Shown one piece after another: positions 25,104 through 27,701 of a stretch of 37,681 bases of DNA (positions are counted from its first letter, which is position 1; each line of letters opens with the position of its first letter). The notes under the pieces are model-generated. The model worked only from the letters and a program-made list of their open reading frames with translations, was not told the origin of the DNA and searched no databases. The stretch comes from a virus: IMG/VR virus record IMGVR_UViG_3300043411_000346, positions 1 through 37,681 of that record; one strand, given 5' to 3'. A program made the position numbers and the translations under genes.

Positions 25104-25112
25104 AATAACCGG

Positions 25113-25142
25113 TTGACACACAACCGCATATCGCGCTAGTCT
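25113..25142 (+). promoter_or_regulatory. Promoter P1, left edge of the accessory island
   Basis: TTGACA at 25113-25118 is followed after 18 bases by TAGTCT at 25137-25142. The -35 region CGGTTGACAC and -10 region GCGCTAGTCT are the same as in the promoter at 26835, and both contain GCATAT in the spacer. The -35 is perfect and the -10 is weak against TATAAT. Confidence 0.65.
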
Positions 25143-25355
25143 TGGGTAGTGCATCAGTTTCAATTCATCAAGCCACATAACTGGCATGAGGTTTGAAACG
25201 CTACACCGCATGGTTCAACGAAGGGCCAATAATGCCTTGTTCGTTAAGACTCAAACTTGTTGACCATCAACCGATTACTATGGTAGAAACCATATGGCGT
25301 TGACTGACGTCACAATGGTTGGGTAACATCCGCGCTCATTAGAGAGGGAGCTGCT
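25143..25355 (+). ncRNA. Folded untranslated leader
   Basis: The 213 bases after promoter P1 hold no gene larger than a few codons and form several hairpins. GTTTCAA at 25157 pairs with TTGAAAC at 25199, with inner pairs TCAT/ATGA and GCCA/TGGC. AACGAA at 25217 pairs with TTCGTT at 25245. TATGGT pairs with ACCATA across AGAA at 25279-25294. The palindrome TGACGTCA lies at 25305. This looks like a structured 5' leader or an RNA in its own right. Confidence 0.45.
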
Positions 25356-25400
25356 ATGACGACGTGCTACGGGGACGGTTCGGACTTGGGTAAAGGCTGA
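25356..25400 (+). CDS. 14-codon ORF with strong ribosome site (leader-peptide-like)
   Basis: The ATG is preceded by AGAGAGGGAG at an ideal distance, stronger than most sites in this genome. The peptide reads MTTCYGDGSDLGKG. It follows a folded leader and is itself followed by the long hairpin at 25427-25476, the layout of a translational leader peptide. No family can be judged at this length. Confidence 0.35.
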   Translation: MTTCYGDGSDLGKG

Positions 25401-25426
25401 AACGGGCCATTCTCTTCACATCTGCG

Positions 25427-25476
25427 ACGGGCGCATAGGAAGTCCTGATATTTCGCGACTTTCCTTATGCGCCCGT
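25427..25476. terminator. Long inverted repeat, probable two-way terminator
   Basis: ACGGGCGCATAGGAAGTC and GACTTTCCTTATGCGCCCGT pair almost fully, with two single-base bulges and a 12-base loop. It contains the stop codon of the minus-strand frame at 25465 and lies where + and - transcripts meet. Neither side has a T-run, so an attenuator or RNA-stability role is also possible. Confidence 0.6.
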
Positions 25477-25794
25477 TGATCTCTTGCGGCGATGATCCCG
25501 AATCTCGCCAGCGAGCCATTCAAAATTCTCAAATGCAGTCGGTTGTTTTCTGGACCGGCGATGTTCCTGCAACCACGGCTGGATATCATCGAACGTTGTA
25601 AGACAAGCTGACCCCATCAGGTCGCAAACAAAACCCACCGGCAGGCGCTCCTTCTTCACAGAGTAGCCGACGCTTTCCCAAAAATTCAGCACTGGTGCCA
25701 CTACAAGGGCATGCGCTGGCAGGTCAGCGAGTGAACGCGCTTGTCGTGCATCTTCACCGACGCCTCGCCCACGCCGTCCTTGACGATGGAACAA
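25465..25794 (-). pseudogene. Truncated minus-strand gene fragment
   Basis: The believable part begins near 25701 (GTG), giving about 78 residues with the core VLNFWESVGYSVKKERLPVG, then DDIQPWLQEHRR. This is like small uncharacterised bacterial proteins with LNFxE and PWL helices (DUF4760-like). The upstream 30 codons are antisense to the P63C-like frame and look non-native. It is the only part of the genome, with 26142-26285, that reads leftward. It is probably a relic; the identification is weak. Confidence 0.4.
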
Positions 25795-26333
25795 GGGTTA
25801 TAGCCCGCGCTCACTTCATGGAAGCAATCGGCCGAAAAGGCAAAGTCAAAGGCGGGGAGAAGTTTGAACGTCACTCAGAGGGGAAATTCCGGGTGCCCGT
25901 TTTTTTGGCCGCTGAGAACCTTAAACCCTTTGTAACCATGGAGTTAATCCAAAATTCTGCCCCAGTCCACTACCACACGCGGTTTGGGCCGAATTGGGGA
26001 CTTCGCGGCGAGGTATTGCCGGGTGTCTGTCAGGTGTATCTCGACGCACAACACCAAGGTGTCTTACAGGCGAACCAGCAGCACATCGCGGAGCAATGCC
26101 GGATTCTTAGTCGTGGCTTTGCCACGGTTGGTCTGTTCGCGCTAATTGACGAGGCCACTGGCGCTCAGGACTTCCGAGCGGCGAACGCGTTGGCCTTCAG
26201 ATATGCCCGCAATGCGCTCAACCAGCGCGTGGGCCATCTGGTTCGCATCAGGTTTCGTGGCTTTCTTGCTAGACCGCTTTGGCATGTTTCACAGTATGGC
26301 ACGGTCGCGGTACGATGGATCAGGCCGGGTTGA
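25695..26333 (+). pseudogene. P63C-type protein, N-terminal part only
   Basis: The frame of 212 residues carries the conserved first half of phage P63C-type proteins. The visible parts are AVLDDGTRVIARAHFMEAIG, LPVFLAAENLKPFV-like FRVPVFLAAENLKPF, then LPGVCQVYLDAQ, IAEQCRILSRG and LIDEATGAQDFRA. The C-terminal P63C domain (LRPW..FP..F) that should follow is absent. After about residue 160 the sequence turns into the antisense of the small gene at 26142-26285. The first 25 residues also look foreign. It is best read as a gene cut at both ends. Confidence 0.6.
26142..26285 (-). CDS. MPKRS-type small basic protein, N-terminal half
   Basis: This 47-residue minus-strand frame opens MPKRSSKKATKPDANQMAHALVERIAG. 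That is like the first half of a widespread small bacterial protein whose second half normally reads NPAAVALGR and GGxKGG. Here the second half is replaced by a run antisense to the P63C fragment. The gene at 26872 on the + strand carries just the missing NPAAVALGR type half. It is likely a truncated relic; expression is unknown. Confidence 0.45.
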   Translation of the reverse strand: MPKRSSKKATKPDANQMAHALVERIAGISEGQRVRRSEVLSASGLVN

Positions 26334-26376
26334 TGCCTTGGGTTTCAAACTGATGCACTACCGAATTGTCGCTGAA

Positions 26377-26453
26377 AGAAAAACGCCCCGCTGGTTTTGT
26401 GGACCAGCGAGGCAAGCTCTACCGGGACCAAGCCGGGAGAACGCAGTGAAGAC
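26377..26453 (-). ncRNA. Candidate 77-nt small RNA on the minus strand
   Basis: A minus promoter (TTGGAC, 17 bases, TATGCT; plus positions 26488 to 26460) is followed about 50 bases later by a standard intrinsic terminator ending in TTTTT at 26383-26379. No start codon lies between. A transcript from about 26453 to 26377 would be about 77 nt. Alternatively the unit is a leader for the minus gene that starts at 26285. Confidence 0.4.
26379..26412 (-). terminator. Intrinsic terminator on the minus strand
   Basis: On the minus strand CCTCGCTGGT pairs with ACCAGCGGGG (one G-U) across a seven-base loop and is followed by CGTTTTTCTTT. This is the clearest rho-independent terminator in the window. 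Confidence 0.75.
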
Positions 26454-26459
26454 GTCCAA

Positions 26460-26488
26460 AGCATACCACGACGTCTTCCCCCGTCCAA
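26460..26488 (-). promoter_or_regulatory. Minus-strand promoter for the small RNA
   Basis: On the minus strand TTGGAC and TATGCT are 17 bases apart. It overlaps the inverted repeat GAAGACGTC...GACGTCTTC (plus 26449-26479), which covers the -10 and could be an operator. Confidence 0.45.
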
Positions 26489-26579
26489 CCGCTTCCACCC
26501 CACAACCCACACACGCAGAGGACGTCGCACGTTGACCGCGCTCTGGTCTAGTACACGTTTCAGTGATGCTCACCAGCTA

Positions 26580-26786
26580 GCGGGCGCTGTCTCGGACGCC
26601 GACAACCCGCGCAGATGCAGATAGCCCTCCACGGGGCGAGCGGTATGGGGGCTTAGCACGGCGAATGACTAACCGTTGTGGGACCTGTGCAACACAGGAC
26701 ACGGCGGGGCGGGAGCGCCGTTGGGCTGAGACGCGGATCAGGAAGGGAGCCGTAGAGCCTTCCAAGCTCGCAGACGCAATACTGCG
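26580..26786 (+). ncRNA. Hairpin-dense region, candidate structured RNA
   Basis: No protein could be recognised in either strand from 26536 to 26834. Five stable hairpins follow each other. GCGGG/CCCGC lies at 26580-26610. CCGTTGTG/CACGGCGG at 26673-26707 encloses the perfect CCTGTG/CACAGG. GGCG/CGCC lies at 26708-26719, GGAAGG/CCTTCC at 26741-26763, and CGCAG/CTGCG at 26769-26786. The density suggests RNA structure rather than coding. The strand is not certain because most stems fold in either strand, and it matches no RNA class I know. Confidence 0.4.
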
Positions 26787-26834
26787 GGAGTAGGGCGTTC
26801 CTCTGTGCGGATGCATGAGAAATGCGATAAGCGG

Positions 26835-26864
26835 TTGACACGTAGCTAGCATATGCGCTAGTCT
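26835..26864 (+). promoter_or_regulatory. Promoter P2, right edge of the accessory island
   Basis: TTGACA at 26835-26840, 18 bases, then TAGTCT at 26859-26864. The same -35 and -10 flanks occur at P1. The spacer holds GCATATGC, a perfect palindrome, inside the larger dyad CTAGC/GCTAG, so an operator is likely here. The -10 ends seven bases before the next ATG, so the mRNA may be leaderless. Confidence 0.65.
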
Positions 26865-26871
26865 GTGGCGC

Positions 26872-27030
26872 ATGAACAAGTCGGTCAAGAAAAACCCCGC
26901 CGCTGTTGCCCTGGGGCGCAAGCGGTGGGCAAACAAGACGAAAGCGGAGCGCATCGCCTTCGGGGCCATGTTGCTCCAGTCACGACGGAACGCCAAACAG
27001 CAACGCGACAAGGAGAAACGCAATGCGTAA
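26872..27030 (+). CDS. Small basic NPAAVALGR-type protein
   Basis: This is a 52-residue protein, strongly basic. The segment KNPAAVALGRKRWANKTKAE is like the C-terminal half of a common small bacterial protein (NPAAVALGR followed by a basic helix). It follows promoter P2 directly and has no ribosome site in reach, so translation would start at or near the 5' end of the mRNA. A DNA- or RNA-binding role is plausible from charge only. Confidence 0.6.
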   Translation: MNKSVKKNPAAVALGRKRWANKTKAERIAFGAMLLQSRRNAKQQRDKEKRNA

Positions 27031-27485: not shown

Positions 27486-27701
27486 ATGGGGATTCTTTTT
27501 CTACTTGTCGCCTCTGTCGCGCTGCTGGTGGGCCTCATCGCTGGAATGCTCATGGAGGCGCACATGAACGACGCGGTTCTTTTTCTACTTGTCGCATCTG
27601 TCGCTCTGCTGGTGGGCCTCATCGCTGGAATGATCATAGAGGCGCACATGAACGACGCCACGGTTGATCGCGTCTTACGTGCGCTCAAGATGCATCGGTA
27701 A
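27486..27701 (+). CDS. Membrane protein with internal duplication
   Basis: This is a 71-residue protein made of two near-identical 28-residue units, each a membrane segment (FLLVASVALLVGLIAGM) followed by EAHMNDA, then the tail TVDRVLRALKMHR. The two membrane helices would therefore be duplicates. AGGAG lies before the ATG. The role is unknown; the cluster suggests a membrane or exclusion function. Confidence 0.6.
   Translation: MGILFLLVASVALLVGLIAGMLMEAHMNDAVLFLLVASVALLVGLIAGMIIEAHMNDATVDRVLRALKMHR
27493..27660 (+). repeat. Tandem 84-bp duplication, two copies
   Basis: The units at 27493-27576 and 27577-27660 differ at only a few bases (CCTCT/CATCT, GCGCTG/GCTCTG, ATGCTCATG/ATGATCATA). The 84-base period is 28 codons, so the frame is kept. 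The duplication appears recent. Confidence 0.9.

Follow-up and report, generated by a model that had tools for sequence, protein, structure and literature searches.

A phage island very probably derived from an IS1-like cargo transposon, and its cargo-carrying relatives in bacteria and viral contigs

The anomalous segment of the virus record IMGVR_UViG_3300043411_000346 is very probably what remains of an IS1-like cargo transposon after decay, rearrangement and loss of autonomy, and not a switch delimited by promoters. The window, that is the whole stretch of 37,681 nucleotides analysed here, has a direct terminal repeat of 127 bp, an indication that the phage genome of 37.7 kb is complete. 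A preliminary description had singled out an island of about 1.7 kb without any intact known gene, in which gene fragments run in both directions; this content was borne out, as were the strong hairpins and the leftward terminator-like hairpin reported for it. The features are as follows.

25110..25142, plus strand: promoter-like repeat, left copy (TTGACA ... TAGTCT, 18-nt spacer; pattern search)
25145..26362, no strand assigned: transposon remnant of 1218 bp, with IS1-like terminal inverted repeats and cargo fragments only
25145..25163, plus strand: left terminal inverted repeat, GGTAGTGCATCAGTTTCAA; ends of this class were found at 67 GTDB loci
25425..25478, no strand assigned: long hairpin where the DUF4760 fragment ends (z -5.8 on plus, -4.7 on minus)
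25465..25752, minus strand: C-terminal half of a DUF4760 gene (PF15956, E 3.5e-13, profile positions 74-139 of 141); N-terminal half missing
25773..26196, plus strand: middle part of a P63C-type gene, corresponding approximately to residues 65-202 in a relative of 337 aa
26176..26289, minus strand: beginning of a small ORF, MPKRSSKKATKPDANQMAHALVERIAG..., interrupted where the P63C fragment joins (open frames)
26344..26362, minus strand: right terminal inverted repeat, GGTAGTGCATCAGTTTGAA; the same sequence as the most frequent end matching the GTDB pattern
26374..26452, minus strand: two hairpins and a U-tract (z -4.1; terminator-like part 26384-26414), outside the transposon
26832..26864, plus strand: promoter-like repeat, right copy; ATG of the next gene 7 bases past TAGTCT
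26872..27030, plus strand: small phage gene after the right copy (52 aa, MNKSVKKNPAAVALGRKRW...)

Borders and content of the element

A repeat search revealed an inverted repeat that the preliminary description had overlooked (22 nt, 91% identity, 25142-25163/26344-26365). Within it, GGTAGTGCATCAGTTTSAA occurs at 25145-25163 on the plus strand and at 26344-26362 on the minus strand, and the exact core of 16 nt exceeds the maximum of 13 nt seen in 200 dinucleotide shuffles. This inverted repeat is the true border for most of the segment. The suggestion of an inserted segment was thus well founded, in that IS1-like terminal inverted repeats bound 25145-26362 and that both the composition and the gene content of this interval are foreign. 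As the preliminary description had sensed, the island is unlike the rest of the genome: the GC content of the element is 54%, versus 61% for the genome, and both its GC and its 3-mer profile were matched or exceeded by just one of 365 genome windows, itself overlapping the element. The element is the most deviant stretch of the phage genome. The promoters, on the other hand, are not the borders, since the element begins 2 bp past the left promoter-like copy and stops about 470 bp short of the right one.

Both ends of the element are of the type that defines the group described below, the right one being perfect over 19 nt and the left one carrying one change. No target-site duplication is present, the adjoining octamers (TAGTCTTG on the left versus GAATTGTC on the right) agreeing at 3 of 8 bases, so that transposition into this exact site is only putative. 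A tblastn search of the window for a transposase remnant gave a best E value of 2.8 and nothing inside the element. What the element does contain is broken cargo. The stop codon of the DUF4760 fragment sits in the stem of the 25425-25478 hairpin; no counterpart of this fragment was found in 289 genomes, plasmids, phages or IMG/VR, nor was DUF4760 found as cargo of the other elements sampled. The P63C-type fragment lacks both a start and the P63C domain itself, shows 46% identity to an annotated P63C protein and 31-43% to P63C genes beside IS1-like transposases, and has homologues adjoining such transposases at five loci (L024, L171, L210, L219 and L280). Since phages with no evident transposon can carry P63C genes too, a P63C fragment alone proves nothing. 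The small ORF beginning MPKRSSKKATKPDANQMAHALVERIAG gave no family match.

Intact passengers and a transposase, absent from the window copy, are present in relatives (L024, L171, L060, L145 and others). Cognate ends without a transposase define a non-autonomous derivative, and this is the condition of the window element, which shows no sign of mobility (no duplication, one copy). Because transposase and duplication were both looked for and neither was found, the element does not qualify as an intact IS1-type transposon, but is a derivative that has ends of this group as its borders.

Relatives in bacterial genomes

Scanning of the GTDB species genomes with GGTAGTGCATCAGTTTNAA yielded 67 loci, against about 7 expected, by our own estimate, when 257 Gb are searched on both strands with a pattern of 18 bases; a scan of IMG/VR with GGTAGTGCATCAGTTTSAA yielded two contigs. 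Many of the GTDB ends form inverted pairs bounded by perfect 8-bp direct duplications (for instance GACTTAAG in L024, ACTGGCGC in L027, and GGTTTGAT in L060), and among 42 elements sampled more widely the majority show a match at 7 or more of the 8 bases. A generalised form of the end, GGTAGTGNNTCAGTTTGAA, was detected in 37 of the 61 genomes of the genus to which the Mesorhizobium locus G001 belongs, with no hit for the reversed-pattern control.

Full-length pairs encode, as a single ORF, a transposase of about 275-310 aa in which D, D and E are invariant. It scores 33.0 bits against PF03400 (DDE_Tnp_IS1), above the cut-off of 24.1, and 66.5 bits against the NCBIfam IS1 model NF033558, below the cut-off of 100. 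Most elements measure 2.3-4.3 kb, a length due to their cargo. The latter includes P63C proteins, helix-turn-helix/M78 peptidase (RmrA-like) proteins, a HipA-like kinase with DUF3037, a HigB/HigA-like pair, DNA methylase-Mrr fusions, SocA/Panacea and AAA ATPases; P63C cargo was found in two elements whose duplications match at 8/8 bases, L024 and L171. A small ORF (MPKGPKGQKRPADVIG...) recurs beside the cargo at five loci (L055, L060, L072, L185 and L199), and by eye the second half of this MPKGPKGQKRPADVIG ORF (ALGRLGG...) resembles the phage gene at 26872 of the window. A search of the literature returned no paper with this end sequence, this IS1-like group or P63C/RmrA-type cargo, and the cargo-carrying group is apparently undescribed so far.

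Relatives in phages and viral contigs

Among GenBank phages, one transposase of the group was found, unannotated and with one matching end nearby, in Brevundimonas phage vB_BpoS-Gurke; there, about 7 kb of unannotated sequence (locus L174, 170788-179666 of the record) holds the IS1-like transposase and the matching end. In IMG/VR, at least 193 stretches encode a transposase of the group. When the best 80 of these were analysed, 42 proved to be complete elements, with GGTAGTG-type ends and an 8-bp duplication around the transposase, as compared with none for three control cores. The IMG/VR counts refer to viral contigs as classed, the phage context having been inspected singly for two other loci, L160 and L145. 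In the former, a 675-bp element (L160:5461-6135) that lacks a transposase and is flanked by a perfect 8-bp duplication lies among terminase, portal and major head genes; in the latter, a full element of 4.3 kb with a perfect duplication is carried by a contig that also encodes an endolysin. The 70 cargo proteins of the viral-contig elements comprised 9 M78 and 6 P63C proteins, the others being methylases, ATPases, HipA and Abi-like proteins, and several match the PADLOC models for RmrA, PD-Lambda-2 and type II methyltransferases.

A few isolated observations were made in the same collection. One IMG/VR contig (L207 and L093) carries an Erf-type gene related to that of the window phage together with a complete IS1-like cargo transposon of 3.8 kb. 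On an AT-rich phage contig, a lone matching end (L008:2588-2606) with no recognisable partner lies between terminase and portal genes; its 39-bp similarity to the right end and flank of the window element was set aside, being at least partly the end itself and for the remainder probably chance or target preference. A single end at L007 was likewise set aside, as it may be due to chance.

Alternative explanations

The segment could consist of the remains of at least two IS1-like insertions whose ends were fused by a deletion, a variant of the explanation given above that we take seriously while leaning against it. Such a fusion would explain both the missing 8-bp duplication and the scrambled fragments, whose orientation alternates, and it agrees with the fact that the two ends diverge immediately inward of the core (CAA versus GAA); duplication-free pairs are moreover known elsewhere (L011, L030, L041, L193 and L204). 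However, a search of the window for a third end or remnant, or for a displaced duplication partner, returned none, and L179 combines ends of mixed type with a perfect duplication, so unlike ends need not mean two elements.

It is unlikely that the segment is a mobile insertion cassette, non-autonomous yet still active and moved in trans by host transposases. Both of its ends are intact, and short pairs without a full transposase but with perfect duplications are common (L033, L048, L180, L186, L190 and L160). Against this, the window element has no duplication and its cargo is broken, and neither a second copy in the phage genome nor a similar element in the collections searched was found.

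The original proposal, in which the segment is functionally bordered by the promoter-like repeats and is lost or regained through recombination between them, we consider very improbable: two 10-bp blocks do flank the segment in direct orientation at equal spacing, but they are just 10 bp long within copies that are 22/33 identical without gaps, the compositional and genetic break falls at the inverted repeats, and no single-promoter relative was found among IMG/VR relatives reached via the neighbouring proteins. The blocks themselves, CGGTTGACAC at 25110 and 26832 and GCGCTAGTCT at 25133 and 26855, were verified to be equally spaced, and each 10-mer is absent from the rest of the window on both strands. 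Direct repeats of 10 nt, the longest found, are singly within chance for 1.77 kb (shuffles gave up to 13); it is the pairing of two such blocks at equal spacing that is the unusual feature. The hexamer GCATAT said to be shared by the spacers is indeed present in both, but offset by one base, such that the strict pattern matches the left copy only. A crossover from promoter to promoter was not supported, as only the 10-bp blocks are common to the two sites and homology in the flanks beyond them does not exceed that of shuffles; a longer duplication behind the pair was also looked for and did not rise above shuffles. Neither copy was called in a sigma-70 consensus scan, the hexamer TAGTCT being a poor match for a -10 element. 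From their equal spacing and TTGACA, the two repeats are plausible but unproved promoters, and no more.

Relatives with the same neighbours and an empty or single-promoter site were sought, and none close was found in the searches. No close DNA relative was found in phage and plasmid records, the promoter pair was not found elsewhere in IMG/VR, and IMG/VR relatives retrieved via the Erf protein or a neighbouring protein of 312 aa did not keep the neighbours and were dismissed. Related phages all carrying an intact segment were not seen either, the intact relatives of the element residing at other loci.

The 470 bp that separate the right inverted repeat from the right promoter copy have a GC content of 61% and are, by composition, non-coding DNA of the phage and not transposon. 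They include the leftward structure at 26374-26452, which runs against the rightward reading of the surrounding phage DNA and could represent a small RNA or a leftward terminator. An Rfam search with this structure gave a sub-threshold match only (plasmid ctRNA, ctRNA_pGA1, E 0.17), and a 12-mer common to this region and L141 was taken as chance, as it lies within an apparent open coding frame. Further to the right (27493-27658), two tandem 82-nt copies that are 95% identical lie inside small ORFs, which correspond to a membrane-protein-like gene with an internal duplication.

Discussion

The derivation from an IS1-like cargo transposon would have proceeded as follows. A transposon carrying at least a P63C gene, and probably the DUF4760 gene and the small ORF as well, would have inserted into this phage, or into one of its recent ancestors, through standard DDE transposase chemistry acting at GGTAGTG...TTTSAA ends, its source being most likely a bacterial replicon. 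The transposase gene would then have been lost, and the cargo broken and partly inverted by rearrangement, whether through intramolecular transposition, an (adjacent) deletion, or recombination or fusion of two copies; the same rearrangement would also have taken away the target-site duplication. The remnant would thus have come to lie 2 bp past a promoter-like site, with no recognisable phage gene interrupted, and any transcript from the left promoter-like site would now enter the element. By itself the element is probably inert; as both ends are intact, a cognate transposase might still move it in trans. Several observations count against this history, namely that the element has neither a target-site duplication nor a transposase, that DUF4760 cargo was not found in the other elements sampled, that no empty site was found in a related phage, and that P63C genes are also seen in phages where no transposon is evident.

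For this phage the result is a modest one: a dead insertion explains the odd island, and a promoter-flanked switch is not needed. The interest lies in the wider cargo-carrying group in bacteria and viral contigs, of which the island itself is a decayed member. Similar ends mark cargo-carrying IS1-like transposons across many bacterial phyla, and the short end signature enables annotators to locate the borders of such elements. The viral-contig loci (at least 193), many with perfect duplications and with defence-type and P63C cargo, provide a testable vehicle for the entry of defence and other accessory genes into phages. We tentatively propose, with a confidence somewhat short of even, that there is a widespread and unrecognised subgroup of long IS1-like transposons which carry one to three cargo genes, often of defence or toxin-antitoxin type (RmrA, PD-Lambda-2, methyltransferase-nuclease, HipA, Abi, P63C), and regularly insert into phages. 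If so, a simple transposase of the IS type would be one of the main ways in which phages gain accessory genes.

With regard to known systems, the relatives of the window element share with the IS1 family a PF03400 transposase, the DDE triad and 8-bp target duplications. They differ in that their transposase scores below the NCBIfam cut-off and is encoded by a single ORF, and in that they reach 2.3-4.3 kb with cargo, whereas IS1 itself measures 0.77 kb; the window copy differs further in having no transposase. IS copies with passenger genes are referred to as transporter IS, or tIS (PMC3129680; PMC7986276). The intact relatives resemble these in being single units with passengers between IS ends, unlike the window copy, which retains passenger fragments only. 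MITEs and mobile insertion cassettes are transposase-less derivatives (PMC3129680). Although the window copy departs from them in its missing target duplication, its broken cargo and its occurrence as a single copy, it is like them in possessing two cognate ends, no transposase, and a length of 1.2 kb.
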